From Flavobacteriales bacterium UBA6772 (GTDB lineage Bacteria; Bacteroidota; Bacteroidia; Flavobacteriales; Flavobacteriaceae): a DNA stretch of 64,000 bases. Shown here piece by piece: positions 56,819 to 64,000 of this stretch (the stretch's first letter is position 1; each line of letters begins with the position of its first letter). Position numbers and translations under genes: made by a program. The stretch covers positions 124,001 through 188,000 of the forward strand of contig CAJIYW010000004.1 of the NCBI GenBank assembly GCA_905181765.1. The letters run 5' to 3'. The notes beneath the pieces were generated by a model that saw only the letters and a list, made by a program, of their open reading frames with translations, ran no database searches and had not been told where the DNA came from.

Positions 56819-59590
56819 TTATAATTGATATCTTACTCTGAAGCTAATAAATCTTGGTAAAATAAAACGTTCATTAACTGTAAATGCAATGATACTCTGA
56901 CTTATATTTACTTGTGAACCTGTTGCTAATAAGTTATTACCTACCAATTCATATTCCCATTTTGCATCTCTATCTTTTCTGTATGCTAATTTTGCATTCC
57001 AAATATTAAATGAACTCTGCTTGTTTCCATCGCGTCTTACTTCGTTAAAAGTAAAATCTGAAGTAAGTGTTACTGAATTCCAAATATATGCATCAAAATC
57101 TATCGATGGTGAATGCGTAACCGTCTTAATATCTGAGGGTCTTGCGCTGTTACTTTGATCTACATAATTTATTCTATAACGCAAAGTAACATTTGGTGCT
57201 TTGGTGAAATTTGTACCAATACTTGCATTCATACCTCTTACTAAACTTTCATTTGTATTCTCTTCCGAGTTAATAAATTGATAGCTTTTATTATATGAGA
57301 AGTTCCCACCAAATCTTGTTCTAATTTTCTTGATGGTTTTACCTAGACCAATAATTGAAGTAAGACTCTCATTATCTAAAGGTGAATTTATATTTGTACT
57401 AGTAGACACAACAGAACGCTGTCCAAAAATTGTATTTCTATTTACCTGATCTGAAGTTTTCTTATAATTTATTGTCGCAAAAACATTACTCGCATTAAAT
57501 AAGTTAAAACTTGAATACCTTAACCTTAAATTATGAAAACTAGCATTTAAAAGTCCAGGATTTCCTGAGAAGAAAGAATTATAACTATTCGCTACAATAC
57601 CCCTTGCTATTTGATTAACGTCTGTAAAATTAACTTCTTGTTTGTAGCTAAAATTTAAACTCTCACTTCTTTTAAACTGCGCTACTACTTCAAATTCTGG
57701 TAAAAATTTAGCAAAGGTATCTTTAAAGGTCTCTGTACCAAATTGGGTATTATTAGAATTATAAGCATGCACTGTAAAACCAGGTGTAAATGTAAAAATA
57801 CCAGATTTCAAACGGTATCTTACCCCCGCGTATATATCTGAAAAACTATAATCAGTATCGTTTGTTGTTTGAGGATTATTAATGTCATCAATAGTTGGAG
57901 TTGGATCAAACTCTACACCATTATCTAAAATCTGAAAAAAACGAGAATTAAAATTCTGTTTACTTAGTATCGTTCCTGTTACAAAATTCAGATTACTTTG
58001 ATCGTTTAAAATATAGTAATAATCTAATTTTGCATCTAACTGATTCGATTTTACACGTCTATCTTGTTCTAAGGTATAAAATTGATTACTTCTATCTAAC
58101 CCTAGAGTTTCTGCTGCATCATCAAACCCATCTTCAAACTCTTCTAAAGAATCTATATCATCTGGGTTATTATTATCTGGATCATTTTCTAAAGAAGCCA
58201 CATAAAAAGGATCTTCATCTTGTAAAATATGTTTTACTTCTAGTGCAAAAATACTTTTTTCACCTGCCGTGTAGAAATAACTAAAATCTTGATTAATTGT
58301 ATAAGGTGTTGCACTTTCAGTCTCTGTAATATTACTTAAAACACGAGAAACTGCAGATTCTCTGACAGATTCACTAGAAAAACGACCAGATACATTGTAG
58401 GTCAATTGATTATTATAATCTTTCTTATAGGTTGTACTTAATCGAAATAAACCCGTATTACTTGTTTGATCTGTTTTATTATCAACAAAATCATCTGGCG
58501 TATCGGGATTTACGTAGTCAATATCGCTAATATTTCTTTGACCGTTACTATTACTAGACCAAATTAAAAAACCACTTAAATCTAATTTTTTATTTGGTGA
58601 ATAACTAATATTTAAAGCAGACAACTTCGTTTCAATTCTGTTTGCATTGTTTGCACCTGCACTTAAAAAACCAATACCCGCGTCTCCTATATTAATATTT
58701 GTACCATTAGAAGGACTTTGGCTTCTAAAACTTCCTCCAAAACTTCTTAAATCTCTTCTACTCAAAACAACATCTCCAAGGTTATTTACATCTCCAATAA
58801 TATTTATGGTGTATTTTGGTGTGTAATAAAATAATTTTGGCTGAAAAAGGTACAAGTCTGTATCTGCAGAATTTCCTGCACCGGCTAATATATCTCCAAA
58901 CCAAAAATTCTTTTTACCTTCTTTTAATTTGATATTTATAGCAACTCTATCTTGGTTATTTTGCACACTACTTAGCTGACTTACATTCGAGTAATTTCTT
59001 AAAACCTGAATTTTATCTACGGCATTAGAGGGAATGTTTTCTGTTGCTAATTTAGTGTCTCCACTAAAAAATTCTTTTCCATCGATCATTATTTTTTCAA
59101 CAGCTTTACCTTCTACTTCAATTTGACCATCATCATTTATTTCTACTCCAGGTAATTTTGCTAAAACATCTTTTAGTTTTCTTTCAGAACCATTTTTAAA
59201 TGAATCTGCATTGTAAATTATAGTATCTCCTTTAATAGTAATGGGCATCTTAGAAATGATCTCTATACCATCTAACATACTATCTTCTAGCATGGTATAA
59301 TCTTTATTCATATTCGTTGTTTTCGTTTTCAAAAATGCACTAATTTCTTTAAAACCGATATAACTAATTTTAATATTATAAACTGTATTTTTTTTAAGAT
59401 CTAATTTAAAATTTCCCTTTGCATCTGTAAAACCATAAGAAGCAATTCTTTTAGCTACGGTATCTAATGCGATAACATTTGCCATTTCTAAAGGAAAATC
59501 TAACGAATCTTTTACAATTCCTCTATATTCTATTTGCGAAAACGCAACTGTAGAAGCAATAAAAATGGCGATGAATACTATTTTTTTCAT
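56819..59590 (-). CDS. outer-membrane beta-barrel / TonB-dependent receptor-like protein
   Basis: 923 aa. Signal peptide MKKIVFIAIFIASTVAFSQ. Residues about 20-105 are a carboxypeptidase-regulatory-like Ig domain (YRGIVKDSLDFPLEMANVIA). A plug-like domain follows (LKDVLAKLPGVEINDDGQIEVEGK, IMIDGKEFFSGDTKLATENIPSNAVDKIQVL). From about 230 there are many aromatic-ended beta strands of a large barrel, ending SFRVRYQL with the terminal hydrophobic residue of an outer-membrane protein. It belongs to the OMP_b-brl_3/TonB receptor group without a SusD partner. It lies 33 nt behind a GLPGLI gene in the same operon. The substrate is unknown; peptide, metal or stress roles are possible. Confidence 0.87.
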   Translation of the reverse strand: MKKIVFIAIFIASTVAFSQIEYRGIVKDSLDFPLEMANVIALDTVAKRIASYGFTDAKGNFKLDLKKNTVYNIKISYIGFKEISAFLKTKTTNMNKDYTMLEDSMLDGIEIISKMPITIKGDTIIYNADSFKNGSERKLKDVLAKLPGVEINDDGQIEVEGKAVEKIMIDGKEFFSGDTKLATENIPSNAVDKIQVLRNYSNVSQLSSVQNNQDRVAINIKLKEGKKNFWFGDILAGAGNSADTDLYLFQPKLFYYTPKYTINIIGDVNNLGDVVLSRRDLRSFGGSFRSQSPSNGTNINIGDAGIGFLSAGANNANRIETKLSALNISYSPNKKLDLSGFLIWSSNSNGQRNISDIDYVNPDTPDDFVDNKTDQTSNTGLFRLSTTYKKDYNNQLTYNVSGRFSSESVRESAVSRVLSNITETESATPYTINQDFSYFYTAGEKSIFALEVKHILQDEDPFYVASLENDPDNNNPDDIDSLEEFEDGFDDAAETLGLDRSNQFYTLEQDRRVKSNQLDAKLDYYYILNDQSNLNFVTGTILSKQNFNSRFFQILDNGVEFDPTPTIDDINNPQTTNDTDYSFSDIYAGVRYRLKSGIFTFTPGFTVHAYNSNNTQFGTETFKDTFAKFLPEFEVVAQFKRSESLNFSYKQEVNFTDVNQIARGIVANSYNSFFSGNPGLLNASFHNLRLRYSSFNLFNASNVFATINYKKTSDQVNRNTIFGQRSVVSTSTNINSPLDNESLTSIIGLGKTIKKIRTRFGGNFSYNKSYQFINSEENTNESLVRGMNASIGTNFTKAPNVTLRYRINYVDQSNSARPSDIKTVTHSPSIDFDAYIWNSVTLTSDFTFNEVRRDGNKQSSFNIWNAKLAYRKDRDAKWEYELVGNNLLATGSQVNISQSIIAFTVNERFILPRFISFRVRYQL

Positions 59591-59623
59591 GTATTATTTT
59601 TTATTAAGTTTCAATAAAATTAT

Positions 59624-60454
59624 TTAGTTTAGTCTTCTACCGCCGCGACCACCTCTGTTTTGAAAACGGGCTTTTAATTCTTCTGTTTTTACTTTTACAA
59701 TTTTATTGTATTCATCTCTCGAAACTTCTTTTCCTTTACTAGGTTCTTCTATTTCTAAAACTTCTTTAGAGCTAATTGCAACTTCTGTACAAAGCATAGT
59801 CATTCTGCCCGCATTTATCTCTAAAATTAACCCTGGTAAACCATAGTATTTATCTGGCCCTGTACTTACCGGAATTTGTGGTGTATACCAAGCTGTGATA
59901 CTTAGCATTTTTTTAGCTGGTTTTACATCTTTTGTCTTTGTAGAATCTTTTTTAGCATTACCTCTTCTACTAAAGATACTTCCCCAATCTATATTCGTAT
60001 CTTCTTTAACGAGCGTAGCTTTATAACAAGTATACTGGCCAATTTTTTTAGTCTCCATACCCATTTCCCATTGCGCTTGCTCCATATTTTCAGTAACTAA
60101 AAAACGTTTACTAAATTGCTCTACATCTTCGATCATTACTAGATCTTTGGTGTTTTTATAAATAGAACCTTGTCCATTACTCCTACCCCAGCTTGGCCCA
60201 GATGCACCAGGTGCTTCCAACTTTACCTCTTCCTTAAAAGAAGATGCAGTTTTATTAAAAGTTAAGGTATACGTTTTTTCTAAAAAACTTTTCATACGCT
60301 GCATTCTTTGCTTTTTCTGCTGCTCCGTCATTTTCCCAAACATACTCATATCCATAGTAGTTTTAGACATATACGTAGCTTTGCCTTGAAAGCTTTTCTG
60401 TGCAAAAGTAATTGATGTAACAAATGTTAAAAAGAATACAAATAGTGATTTCAT
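59624..60454 (-). CDS. secreted GLPGLI family protein (second copy)
   Basis: 276 aa with signal peptide (MKSLFVFFLTFVTSITFAQ). The family name motif appears as KYYGLPGLILEINAGRMTMLCTEV at about 208-231, after ITAWYTPQIPVSTGP and WEMGMETKKIGQYTCYKA. An insert rich in Met/Gln/Lys (MTEQQKKQRMQRMKSFLEKTY) lies near 40-60, and the C-terminus is Arg/Gly-rich (RFQNRGGRGGRRLN). GLPGLI (Porph_ging) proteins are exported and of unknown function. It is a paralogue of the next gene upstream. It has its own promoter and precedes the beta-barrel receptor gene. Confidence 0.88.
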   Translation of the reverse strand: MKSLFVFFLTFVTSITFAQKSFQGKATYMSKTTMDMSMFGKMTEQQKKQRMQRMKSFLEKTYTLTFNKTASSFKEEVKLEAPGASGPSWGRSNGQGSIYKNTKDLVMIEDVEQFSKRFLVTENMEQAQWEMGMETKKIGQYTCYKATLVKEDTNIDWGSIFSRRGNAKKDSTKTKDVKPAKKMLSITAWYTPQIPVSTGPDKYYGLPGLILEINAGRMTMLCTEVAISSKEVLEIEEPSKGKEVSRDEYNKIVKVKTEELKARFQNRGGRGGRRLN

Positions 60455-60475
60455 AATTTTTTTTTAGTTTTCAGT

Positions 60476-60483
60476 CAAAATTA
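60476..60483 (-). promoter_or_regulatory. -7 promoter element for the GLPGLI-receptor gene pair
   Basis: Minus-strand TAATTTTG, a perfect match, 21 nt before the ATG at 60454. Confidence 0.5.
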
Positions 60484-60521
60484 ATAGATTTACAACAGTA
60501 TGACGAGCAACAATTTAATTT

Positions 60522-60538
60522 GTTACACAAGTGTATAA
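60522..60538. promoter_or_regulatory. putative operator upstream of the GLPGLI-receptor pair
   Basis: GTTACACAAGTGTATAA, with arms TACAC/GTGTA around AA, lies about 40 nt upstream of the -7 box. It shares ACAAGTGT, flanked by GTTA and TAA, with the site between the kinase gene and the small secreted protein gene at 61871. A common regulator, probably the neighbouring response regulator, is inferred. Confidence 0.4.
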
Positions 60539-60614
60539 AAATAATACTTACTCGAAACATTAGACATAAAAAAAAATGAAAGGTTTAATTTATAATGAAA
60601 ATAAATAAACAAGA

Positions 60615-61459
60615 TTATCCACCTATCTGTAAGCTTCTTCCATTTCCTAAGTCTAAACCTTTTCTAGCCTTAAATTTTTCCATCATTTCATCTGTCTTTT
60701 GCTTTTGAATTTCAAGAAACTTCTTTTGAGAAACAATCTTTCCTTTTTTAGGTTCTTGAATCGTAATTTTTTTGAAGGGTTTAATATAATTTCTGTACAA
60801 ACTATTATTTTTTTACCATCATTTATTTCTAAAATTAAACCAGGTAAACCTTGGTAATTTCCTGGTCCATTACCCACAGAAATCTTTGGTGCATACCAAG
60901 CTGTAGTAATAATTGTTTCTTTTTGTATTTCTTCTACAGACTTACCATTTTTAAAAGTTATATTTTTATTTTCTACTTCTTTTGAGAACGTAGCTTTGTA
61001 ACACGTATAAGTTCCTATGTTTTTTGTTTCGGATGATAATTCCCATTTATACTCTGGAAGTTTGTCTTTTACCAAAAAGCGTTTTCCCATAATTTCTGTT
61101 TGATTCGAAAAACGTTTCTCCTTAATATTTTTAAAATAGATGCTAGCATTTACAGAACTACCAAACATCATTACAATGTCTCCACCTCCAACTTGAGGTT
61201 TTGGGACATCTAATGTTGTTTCTTCTATATATGACGAAGTTTTTTGATCAAAATTTAAAATAAACGTTTTTTGATTCATTTTATGCAGTTGTGCCTGAAG
61301 TTGCTTTTTCATATCATCAGACATCGTAGAATTTTCATCTTCATCAAACGAAAAAGAAGATTTAATACTTGATTTATAAATAGCTTTTCCTGTAAAATTT
61401 TGTGCATTAATAATCAATGAGCAAAATAAAATTAATGTTGTTAATAATTTAATCTTCAT
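60615..61459 (-). CDS. secreted GLPGLI family protein (first copy), frame interrupted
   Basis: About 281 aa when joined. Signal peptide MKIKLLTTLILFCSLIINAQ, then FTGKAIYKSSIKSSFSF, WELSSETKNIGTYTCYKATFSKE, TTAWYAPKISVGNGPGNYQGLPGLILEINDGKKIIVCTEI. The frame breaks after IILNP at 60776; restoring one T gives NPFKKITIQEPKKGKIVSQ and continues to GLDLGNGRSLQIGG. It is a paralogue of the copy at 59.6 kb, including the shared EPxKGK-V-S segment. The start overlaps the 3' end of the small secreted protein gene by 11 nt, so the two are coupled. Function is unknown. Confidence 0.88.
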
Positions 61460-61817
61460 TTTTTAAATTTTTAGTTACTTTATTTATAAATTTTATTCCT
61501 TTTCTCATGCTTAAAACTAAACTATCAATTTCCCTCGCCTTACCTGCTACTTTATAGCTAAAATCGTAATTCACCTTTAATTTAGCTTTTTGTTTTTCTT
61601 TAGTTTTTAATTTAATTTCTAAAAAAATGTTGCTTTCTGGACTATTTTGTTTAAAAGCTTCTTTAACATCTTGCCAATTAATAGTTGCTAATTCTTTTGA
61701 AGAATCTACAGTAAAACTTAAAGAGTTTACATTCATATAATTTTTACTACTATTCTTATTTTGAGAAAAAATAAGCGAAGAAGCAAAAACACAAATGGCA
61801 AAAATAATTTTAATCAT
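61449..61817 (-). CDS. small secreted protein, function unknown
   Basis: 122 aa, not recognised. Signal peptide MIKIIFAICVFASSLIFSQN, then a mature part of about 100 residues: NYMNVNSLSFTVDSSKELATINWQDVKEAFKQN, SNIFLEIKLKTKEKQKAKLKVNYDFSYKV, LVLSMRKGIKFINKVTKN. The alternating pattern suggests a small beta-rich periplasmic domain. It is the first gene of the GLPGLI/receptor cluster, coupled to the next gene by an 11-nt overlap and divergent from the two-component system, whose control region it shares. I infer that it works with the GLPGLI proteins. Confidence 0.75.
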   Translation of the reverse strand: MIKIIFAICVFASSLIFSQNKNSSKNYMNVNSLSFTVDSSKELATINWQDVKEAFKQNSPESNIFLEIKLKTKEKQKAKLKVNYDFSYKVAGKAREIDSLVLSMRKGIKFINKVTKNLKNED

Positions 61818-61840
61818 AGTTCTTTATTTTAAATTTTGAA

Positions 61841-61848
61841 CAAAGATG
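61841..61848 (-). promoter_or_regulatory. probable -7 element for the small secreted protein/GLPGLI operon
   Basis: Minus-strand CATCTTTG, one mismatch to TAnnTTTG, 23 nt upstream of the ATG at 61817. Confidence 0.35.
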
Positions 61849-61870
61849 AGCCTTAGATGTATTTTACTTA

Positions 61871-61896
61871 GTTAACAAGTGTTAATGAGTGTTAAC
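61871..61896. promoter_or_regulatory. three GTTAA(C/T) direct repeats at exact 10-bp spacing: putative response regulator operator
   Basis: GTTAAC, GTTAAT and GTTAAC begin at 61871, 61881 and 61891, each followed by (A/G)AGT or CTCA. One-helical-turn direct repeats are the usual target of OmpR/PhoB-type regulators. The array lies between two divergent -7 boxes, ending 26 nt before the kinase -7 box, a position suited to activation. Confidence 0.55.
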
Positions 61897-61922
61897 CTCA
61901 TCGTATTATAATATTAACGAAC

Positions 61923-61930
61923 TATCTTTG
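61923..61930 (+). promoter_or_regulatory. -7 element of the histidine kinase gene, predicts a leaderless mRNA
   Basis: TATCTTTG followed by AAAT and the ATG at 61935. No -33 TTG is seen, consistent with dependence on an activator. Confidence 0.5.
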
Positions 61931-61934
61931 AAAT

Positions 61935-63569
61935 ATGAATACTCAAAAATATCAATGGCTTTTTTACTTAATAACAGCTACCATAATAGCGACTATTGGT
62001 GTACAATTCTATTGGAATTATAAAAATTACGAAGAAAATAAGCGACAAGTAACAAACGAAATTCAATTAAGTCTAGACAATGCTGTAGAAGAATATTATT
62101 CTTCTCTTGCAAAAAGTGACTTTTTAACTATTATTGATAACAATAGTAATTCTGTTGCTATTTTTAAAAACCCGCTTAATTTAATTAAAGAGAAATCATA
62201 TAAGAGCAAATCTATTGGAAATATTATAAATAAAATAAAACCAAATAATTCTGAGAAAGAAAAACCGAGAGCATCAATAAACAATCTAAAATTCACTTTT
62301 GATGAAAACTTGTCTAAAGAAAAAATAGATTCTATGATGATTTCGGCAAAAGACTTTGTCATAGAATTCAATTCCAATTTAGATTCATTAAATAACAAAA
62401 AAAAAGACTCCGTTGAAGTATTAAACCAAATTACCGATAAGAAGAAAGGTTTTAACTTAAATTCTGATGGAGCAAATAAAGTAATTAAATATTTTAGGGG
62501 CAAAAAAGCAGCAGATAGCTTAAAATTAATTAAAAATCTAAAACCTATTTTCATCTCATTCTTAGATCAATCCGTAGAGTATGAAAAAATAGATTCTCTG
62601 ATAGAGATACAACTACAAAAAAAAGGAATCGAACTAACAACAAGCTTTCATCATTTAAAAAACGATACCCTTTTTCATCAAACGAAAGATAGTTTATTAG
62701 CTACTGAAAAAAAATATCTTCGGTCTAAATCTACTTTTGTAAAAGATAATGAAGCTTTCAAATTAGTGTATAATAACCCAAGTATCGCAGCTTTAAAAAG
62801 AAGTTCTTTCGGAATTTTCTTATCCTTATTATTATCTTTAGCTGTAATTTCTAGTTTATTTTACCTTTTAAAAATCATTAATCAACAAAAGGAATTAGCA
62901 GCTATTAAAAACGATTTAATCAGTAATATAACGCATGAATTTAAAACACCTATTGCCACTATTTCTGCAGCTATTGAGGCAATTAAAAATTTTAATGTCT
63001 TAGAAGATCCTGAAAAGACGAGTAAATACCTTTCAATGTCCTCTATTCAGATAAATAAATTACATCAAATGGTTGAGAAACTTCTAGAAACGGCTATGTT
63101 AGATAGTGAACAATTAGTGCTAAAAAAAGAAACTGTTGATATCGTTGATATTGCAGAAAAAGTGGTTTATAAACATCAAATATTAGCCCATAAAAAAGAA
63201 CTTTCATTTTTTACAACCTTGCAACCTTGCTATGCAAATGTTGATGTTTTTCACTTCGAAAACGTGATTTCTAATTTGATTGATAATGCTGTAAAATATG
63301 GAGGAAATCAAATAGAAATGAATATAAGTTCAGTTTTAAACACAATAGAAATTACAGTTGTAGATGACGGGAATGGTATTGAAAAAAATCAGAAAGAAAA
63401 GATTTTTGACAAGTTTTATCGCGTTCCAAAAGGAAATACACATGATGTAAAAGGATTTGGAATTGGATTGTATTACTGTAAAAAAATCATCGAAAAACAT
63501 GAAGGAGTCATTGGACTAACGTCAGATAAAAGCAAAACTATTTTTAAAATAACAATTCCAAATGAGTAA
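61935..63569 (+). CDS. sensor histidine kinase
   Basis: 544 aa. TM1 is at about 8-26 and TM2 at about 291-313, enclosing a periplasmic sensor region of about 265 residues rich in Lys, Ser and Asn, not recognised as a known sensor domain. The HisKA domain has phospho-acceptor H334 in NDLISNITHEFKTPIATISAA. HATPase motifs are NLIDNAVKYG (N box), VVDDGNGIEK (G1), FDKFYRVPKG (F box) and GFGIGLYYCKKI (G2). There is no HAMP domain, since TM2 leads into HisKA within 15 residues. It overlaps the response regulator gene by 8 nt. It probably senses an envelope signal and controls the divergent GLPGLI/receptor cluster. Confidence 0.92.
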   Translation: MNTQKYQWLFYLITATIIATIGVQFYWNYKNYEENKRQVTNEIQLSLDNAVEEYYSSLAKSDFLTIIDNNSNSVAIFKNPLNLIKEKSYKSKSIGNIINKIKPNNSEKEKPRASINNLKFTFDENLSKEKIDSMMISAKDFVIEFNSNLDSLNNKKKDSVEVLNQITDKKKGFNLNSDGANKVIKYFRGKKAADSLKLIKNLKPIFISFLDQSVEYEKIDSLIEIQLQKKGIELTTSFHHLKNDTLFHQTKDSLLATEKKYLRSKSTFVKDNEAFKLVYNNPSIAALKRSSFGIFLSLLLSLAVISSLFYLLKIINQQKELAAIKNDLISNITHEFKTPIATISAAIEAIKNFNVLEDPEKTSKYLSMSSIQINKLHQMVEKLLETAMLDSEQLVLKKETVDIVDIAEKVVYKHQILAHKKELSFFTTLQPCYANVDVFHFENVISNLIDNAVKYGGNQIEMNISSVLNTIEITVVDDGNGIEKNQKEKIFDKFYRVPKGNTHDVKGFGIGLYYCKKIIEKHEGVIGLTSDKSKTIFKITIPNE

Positions 63570-64000
63570 GATAAAAGTACTCTTAGCTGAGGATGAAGCG
63601 AGTTTAGGAATGATTGTAAAAGAGAGTTTAGAAACTAGAAATTTCACTGTTTTTCATACAAAAAATGGTGAAGAAGCTTTTGAGGTTTACAGAAAAGAAA
63701 AACCTGATATTTTGGTCTTAGATGTAATGATGCCTAAAAAAGACGGATTTACTTTAGCGAAAGAAATACGTTTAGATGATAAAAAAATTCCTATTATATT
63801 TTTAACAGCAAAATCGCAAACTTCAGATGTATTGGAAGGTTTTAATAATGGAGGTAATGATTATTTAAAAAAACCTTTTTCTATGGAAGAGTTAATTGTG
63901 AGAATTAAATCTTTGTTAAATAGAATAGAAACTAAAACTAATGTTGACGCTATTAAAATAGGAAATTACTCATTTAACTCAACCAAACAAACACTTGAAA
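63562..64000 (+). CDS. OmpR-type response regulator (partial, cut by window end)
   Basis: The first 146 codons are present, beginning ATGAGTAAG inside the kinase stop overlap: MSKIKVLLAEDEASLGMIVKESLE. The receiver domain has the acidic pair E10/D11, phospho-acceptor D53 in ILVLDVMMPKKDG, Thr in IIFLTAKS and Lys in DYLKKPFSMEEL. After a short linker IKIGNYSFNSTKQTLE begins what looks like the winged-helix domain of OmpR/PhoB regulators. The rest lies outside the window. Confidence 0.92.
   Translation, partial: MSKIKVLLAEDEASLGMIVKESLETRNFTVFHTKNGEEAFEVYRKEKPDILVLDVMMPKKDGFTLAKEIRLDDKKIPIIFLTAKSQTSDVLEGFNNGGNDYLKKPFSMEELIVRIKSLLNRIETKTNVDAIKIGNYSFNSTKQTLE

Follow-up and report, generated by a model that had tools for sequence, protein, structure and literature searches.

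It is fairly probable that the divergent gene cluster described here represents a conserved envelope-maintenance module of the Flavobacteriaceae that receives two regulatory inputs, i.e., from the adjacent kinase-regulator pair and from an ECF sigma factor, both of which are predicted to act on GLPGLI-A and the outer-membrane barrel gene. The gene order, the tie between a putative operator and the kinase and the tie between a sigma-type promoter and a sigma gene emerge, like the predicted GLPGLI fold, from the comparative analysis, and the wiring predicted for the module is well supported. The window, i.e., the whole analyzed stretch of 64,000 nucleotides (G000:C4:124001-188000), belongs to a draft genome of 1.93 Mb that is 70% complete. 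At the locus of the barrel, GLPGLI and kinase genes the nearest named relatives are Polaribacter species. Open reading frames and profile searches confirmed the gene set of the initial annotation, consisting of the barrel, two GLPGLI proteins, a small exported protein, the kinase and an OmpR-type regulator, and also its remark that a SusD partner is missing, as the ORF list and Pfam revealed no SusD-like ORF in the region. The features are as follows:

56819..59590, minus strand: outer-membrane barrel protein, 923 aa, with signal peptide, CarboxypepD_reg-like domain, weak Plug and barrel (ORF and Pfam)
59624..60454, minus strand: GLPGLI-A, exported, 276 aa (TIGR01200 158.9 bits, Porph_ging 101 bits)
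60522..60538, no strand assigned: second motif copy of the initial annotation, GTTACACAAGTGTATAA, a match to its own pattern that is unsupported as an operator
60560..60588, minus strand: ECF-sigma-type promoter TTAAACCTTT-N12-TGTCTAA, preceding GLPGLI-A and the barrel gene
60615..61459, minus strand: GLPGLI-B, frameshifted here, with an annotated frame of 60683-61459 (TIGR01200 153.5 bits)
61449..61817, minus strand: small exported protein, 122 aa, matching no known family
61841..61848, minus strand: leftward -7 element CATCTTTG, a variant of TAnnTTTG, 22 bp from the repeat array
61871..61896, plus strand: putative operator GTTAACAAGT GTTAATGAGT GTTAAC, three direct repeats with a 10-bp period
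61923..61930, plus strand: kinase promoter -7 element TATCTTTG, 4 nt before the ATG
61935..63569, plus strand: sensor histidine kinase with two TM segments, a variable exported sensor region, HisKA and HATPase_c (Pfam)
63562..64000, plus strand: OmpR-type response regulator with Response_reg (Pfam), the gene being interrupted by the window end

The regulator gene continues for 239 bases beyond the window and encodes 225 aa in its complete form (L035:9563-10240). On the other side, gldA is the next gene after the barrel gene.

The adjacency of GLPGLI, barrel and kinase genes in related genomes had been offered as a check of the earlier reading and it held. The barrel gene and the GLPGLI gene(s) are divergent from the kinase-regulator pair in all 40 fetched loci (20/20 from the genus and 20/20 from the family), and the same divergent order is found in 77 of 80 named Flavobacteriaceae loci from Polaribacter, Tenacibaculum, Kordia, Aquimarina, Winogradskyella, Flavobacterium, Maribacter and others, the genus, family and named sets overlapping in part. 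Two of the three exceptions are contig ends; the third (L194) has retained kinase, regulator and operator and has lost GLPGLI and barrel. Clear kinase orthologues are present in about 22 of 35 genomes of the same genus and, at E<=1e-60, in 78 of 250 genomes of the family (237 genera). The number of GLPGLI genes per locus varies from one to three, and the small exported protein occurs mostly in Polaribacter and Tenacibaculum. At two loci (L195, L211) the gene for this small protein is found on the other strand, preceding the kinase, and the divergent promoter in front of this small gene is where the operator lies.

The motif copy at 61871 marks the left end of a putative operator, an array that spans 26 bp between two divergent promoters and consists of three 10-bp repeats (GTTAACnagT) in head-to-tail order, and three repeats with this period correspond to the half-sites spaced 10–11 bp apart that characterize operators of the OmpR/PhoB type. 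In the own genome a single array site was found at <=3 mismatches and none in reversed controls. The array precedes the kinase ATG by 64–66 bp in all 20 genus loci. In a scan that scored 105 loci and demanded the repeat core, whose invariance there is thus partly given by construction, the distance from the array to the kinase -7 box (TAnnTTTG) is 26–28 bp in 105/105 loci, and the leftward -7 box lies at a distance of exactly 22 bp in 75/105; the unselected genus and family loci show the same array. The TTTG of the kinase -7 box is separated from the ATG by 4 nt in 85 of the 105 loci, and because the box ends so close to the start codon the kinase-regulator mRNA is probably leaderless. The exact three-repeat pattern occurs in 73/78 kinase-bearing and in 9/172 kinase-less family genomes (Fisher p = 2.3e-46, which overstates the independence of these 250 related genomes, nearly each of which is from a different genus). 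Directly upstream of the kinase and on the kinase strand the exact operator is present in 71 of the 78 kinase-bearing genomes, the remaining seven having no exact match in this place. Position, repeat type and co-loss suggest that the regulator would be the protein that binds the divergent operator. Moreover, it may act as activator rather than as repressor, judged from the position of the site: an array just upstream of the kinase promoter suits activation, and the 22-bp leftward spacing also permits repression.

Three-repeat sites were also encountered away from this arrangement. Several lie close upstream of genes for exported proteins including a CarboxypepD_reg barrel, and in L224, L226, L225 and L233, from different genomes, they precede genes of related small exported proteins by approximately 50 bp. 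In two genera (L221:3101-3247 and L223:3027-3181) such sites are located between genes for aspartyl-protease-like and winged-helix proteins. These latter sites suggest that repeats of this type may be recognized by a further regulator, perhaps one belonging to a second system.

The initial annotation had placed a common operator motif in both internal control regions. The copy at 61871 stands as part of the conserved array; the copy at 60522 does not, as it is missing from the corresponding gap of 16 relatives compared. The motif as originally written matches exactly only at 60522-60538, and with <=3 mismatches it has five matches in the window compared to 5.8 expected. The 60522 site also lies outside of any three-repeat array. 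Two copies of one operator were therefore rejected, the 60522 copy being unconserved and the pattern unenriched in the window, and this copy is probably a chance match. Internal operators are possible in principle, since in one genome (L227) two GLPGLI genes are separated by a site that is truly three-repeat-like.

The gap before GLPGLI-A holds a different element, overlooked in the initial annotation, of the form TTAAACyTTT-N12-nGTCT. With two mismatches allowed this pattern shows no genome-wide excess over a reversed control, and for this reason all counts given here rest on strict matches in fixed positions. In 40 loci 26 strict elements are found on the coding strand of GLPGLI-A and barrel versus one on the opposite strand, and nearly all of the 26 directly precede GLPGLI-A. 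Of 22 genomes, 20 carry the same element upstream of an ECF sigma gene and likewise 20 carry it before the gene next to that one, with zero matches in the reversed control in both cases. This sigma gene is present in 22/22 genomes examined and its product matches Sigma70_r2 with 48.5 bits and Sigma70_r4_2 with 47.7 bits. The gene following it looks like an anti-sigma factor, as suggested by its position and one hydrophobic segment. The element before GLPGLI-A is thus the one found in the promoter of the sigma gene, as would be expected for a member of the sigma regulon. Further matches precede Spy-like exported proteins, DUF1800-looking proteins and another CarboxypepD_reg barrel. Many loci outside of Polaribacter and Tenacibaculum have no strict match, so the predicted sigma input is common and not universal. 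In L072, L078 and L086 a conserved three-gene operon encodes the ECF sigma factor, the anti-sigma-like protein and a third exported protein that has a SREKIKALKxxYLTxxLxLT motif and no Pfam family; the promoter element precedes each of the first two genes.

Genomes that lack the kinase separate the two predicted inputs. Six genomes of the same genus (G010, G014, G019, G023, G029 and G034) retain GLPGLI-A and barrel, and no orthologous kinase was found in them. The three-repeat array is missing in 5/5 of those with a sequenced upstream region, i.e., all but G014. All six have retained the sigma-type promoter, as a strict match in G019, G023, G029 and G034 and one base off in G010 and G014 (by eye). 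A C-terminal remnant of the regulator gene persists in G023 and G029, and GLPGLI-B was lost as well in G029 and G034. These genomes indicate that the operator is retained or lost along with the two-component system, and that the sigma promoter follows GLPGLI-A and barrel.

Both GLPGLI proteins score far above the TIGR01200 cut-off of 50 bits, and the eponymous residues G205-L-P-G-L-I are invariant or nearly so in an alignment of 54 members. The reading frame of GLPGLI-B breaks in a run of seven T (60767-60773), leaving the conserved tail out of frame down to 60615. Three-frame translation showed that GLPGLI-B is intact in relatives, which makes programmed frameshifting unlikely; the frameshift may be a sequencing or assembly error of the draft. 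Another GLPGLI gene of the own genome (G000:C6:113199-113958; L003, L004) also seems broken, with an internal stop and in two pieces. The predicted model of GLPGLI-A, built from the 54-protein alignment, reached a pLDDT of 85.6 and a pTM of 0.81. Its best Foldseek match is the PNGase F-II bowl-like domain (E 2e-7 to 1e-6). A profile search likewise pointed to 7zgn (E 0.043), and the Pfam scan gave a weak match to PF22252. Ependymin-related protein (1.2e-3), LolA (1.7e-3) and then LprF and LppX follow among the structural matches, those to LolA and ependymin being weak (TM-score 0.3–0.5, LolA 0.33–0.45) and to be read as a lead. Several of these weaker matches are lipid or lipoprotein binders. 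The model suggests that GLPGLI proteins probably form LolA/ependymin-type bowls in the periplasm, with a hydrophobic ligand such as a lipid, a lipoprotein or an exported chain.

The barrel protein matches CarbopepD_reg_2 above cut-off with 32.6 bits and Plug with 20.1 bits, i.e., below the cut-off of 23.9 bits for the Plug domain of TonB-dependent receptors. Its relatives score 19.7–19.8 bits or have no Plug match, so that Plug stays below cut-off in every member scanned; one relative matches OMP_b-brl_3. A sequence search of the PDB with the barrel gave no match. An adjacent SusD lipoprotein, by which SusCD pairs are recognized, is absent from the locus. The kinase carries H334 within an invariant ITHEFKTP as well as N447 (alignment), and together with HATPase_c, the receiver domain and the full-length OmpR-type regulator this assigns the pair to the HisKA/OmpR class of two-component systems. 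Its sensor region is very variable in length and sequence among orthologues, which mildly disfavors one small conserved ligand. For the full-length regulator the best named model is RprY (NF051850) with 270.9 bits, and it was rejected as an RprY orthologue because the cut-off is 370 bits. The small exported protein has no Pfam or NCBIfam match; a model from a 19-member alignment has a confident core (pLDDT 81.6) and no fold match in the PDB. In L051 and L156 a tandem duplication has produced a single longer version of it.

From these observations a mechanism can be proposed. The kinase would sense a condition of the envelope or outer membrane and the phosphorylated regulator would bind the three head-to-tail half-sites between the divergent promoters, most likely activating its own operon and the operon of small protein, GLPGLI-B, GLPGLI-A and barrel. 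In some species a wider three-repeat regulon is likely. A general ECF sigma factor would drive the internal promoter before GLPGLI-A and barrel, so these two genes would also follow the sigma-factor response. The GLPGLI bowls may bind a hydrophobic ligand and work with the barrel; signal, ligand, biochemical role and the cooperation of GLPGLI and barrel we infer. The earlier idea of a sensing module that has dedicated exported proteins and a shared operator is upheld by these data. Contrary to what had also been proposed, the module is not fully self-contained, since GLPGLI-A and barrel are probably controlled by a second regulator as well. As a bolder and rather doubtful extension, the GLPGLI proteins might form a large unrecognized class of periplasmic lipid/lipoprotein carriers of the Bacteroidota that exchange cargo with a dedicated barrel and are induced by a private two-component system and an ECF sigma factor. 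If true, such carriers would give the outer membrane a second route of trafficking that is tuned to stress.

The initial annotation had named uptake and envelope stress as alternatives. The latter is favored by the ECF-sigma promoter and the LolA/ependymin-like predicted fold, and direct evidence for uptake was not found. For nutrient uptake, the barrel would be a TonB-dependent receptor for one substrate, with GLPGLI proteins as periplasmic or surface binding partners and a kinase sensing the substrate. The weak Plug match and the receptor-type layout are compatible with this reading, as is the finding that a mutant of P. gingivalis PG0720 (HaeR, with a hemin-uptake regulon; PMC3764172) has altered GLPGLI transcripts (PMC8757827). 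We nevertheless consider uptake unlikely, since the cluster contains neither SusD nor an inner-membrane transporter or a degradative enzyme, Plug fails its cut-off throughout, the other targets of the second predicted regulator, the ECF sigma factor, look stress-related and the GLPGLI fold is predicted to resemble LolA and ependymin. Binding of peptides or glycans, as the PNGase F-II bowl domain might do, in a module handling glycoprotein material would agree with the best structural match and the weak PF22252 match; it is quite improbable, as the cluster lacks a glycan enzyme and the bowl domain itself is dispensable for PNGase activity and has no known function (PMC9522356).

Regarding the sign of regulation, two-component pairs under autoregulation are usually controlled positively, and the 26–28 bp to the kinase -7 box suit an activator just upstream of the -33 region. 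Repression, with the genes coming on when the kinase signal is lost, therefore seems rather unlikely, even if binding at a distance of 22 bp from the leftward -7 box could obstruct the -33 region there and PhoP of Riemerella has positive effects on some GLPGLI genes and negative effects on others (PMC9603813). That two unrelated gene sets merely share a promoter region by chance is hardly credible given the same order across many genera and the joint loss of operator and kinase; the six genomes with GLPGLI-barrel genes and no kinase and the reverse case in L194 are what speaks for it. An envelope-maintenance module under two inputs thus is the reading preferred here. With it the exported GLPGLI family, uncharacterized for a long time, can be given a fold class and is linked to a fixed partner, a defined predicted operator and two likely regulators, and its role becomes directly testable in a laboratory flavobacterium. 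In the Flavobacteriaceae, one sensor kinase can now be assigned a predicted operator, and an ECF sigma factor of wide conservation a predicted promoter element; this large and mostly marine family is seen to keep a kinase-regulator pair fixed beside a small set of exported proteins.

Several known systems show similarities. Riemerella anatipestifer PhoPR (RAYM_RS09735/09740) is likewise an autoregulated two-component system of the Flavobacteriia with an OmpR-type regulator, and PhoP recognizes an ArcA-like TTTAACA motif and has several GLPGLI genes among its direct targets (PMC9603813, PMC5399024). Compared by description, it differs as a global regulator with hundreds of sites, and in the literature on Riemerella PhoPR we found neither GLPGLI and barrel genes described next to it nor an operator with three repeats. 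P. gingivalis HaeSR (PG0719/PG0720) is a two-component system of the Bacteroidota whose regulator mutant lowers the GLPGLI transcripts PG1492 and PG1908 (PMC8757827); again by description, its regulon is global and linked to hemin. Within the limited searchable GLPGLI literature the divergent three-repeat layout was not found described in the work on Riemerella PhoP or PG0720. RprXY of Bacteroides and Porphyromonas supplies the best named model for the regulator, but one that stays below cut-off. Among the structures, the N-terminal bowl-like domain of PNGase F-II (4r4z, 7zgn) is distantly related to GLPGLI-A in sequence; there it is fused to the PNGase, whereas GLPGLI-A is free-standing without an enzyme domain. 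The half-barrels of LolA, LppX and ependymin-related proteins, with a concave sheet and helices, resemble the predicted fold less closely and by model only. Finally, in the ECF regulons of the Flavobacteriia, such as SM6 of F. psychrophilum, a sigma/anti-sigma pair similarly reads its own promoter together with those of envelope genes (PMC9723704). A CGT box and T9SS targets are reported for SM6; the sigma factor described here would read TTAAAC-N17-GTC and have Spy-like proteins, a barrel and GLPGLI among its targets.
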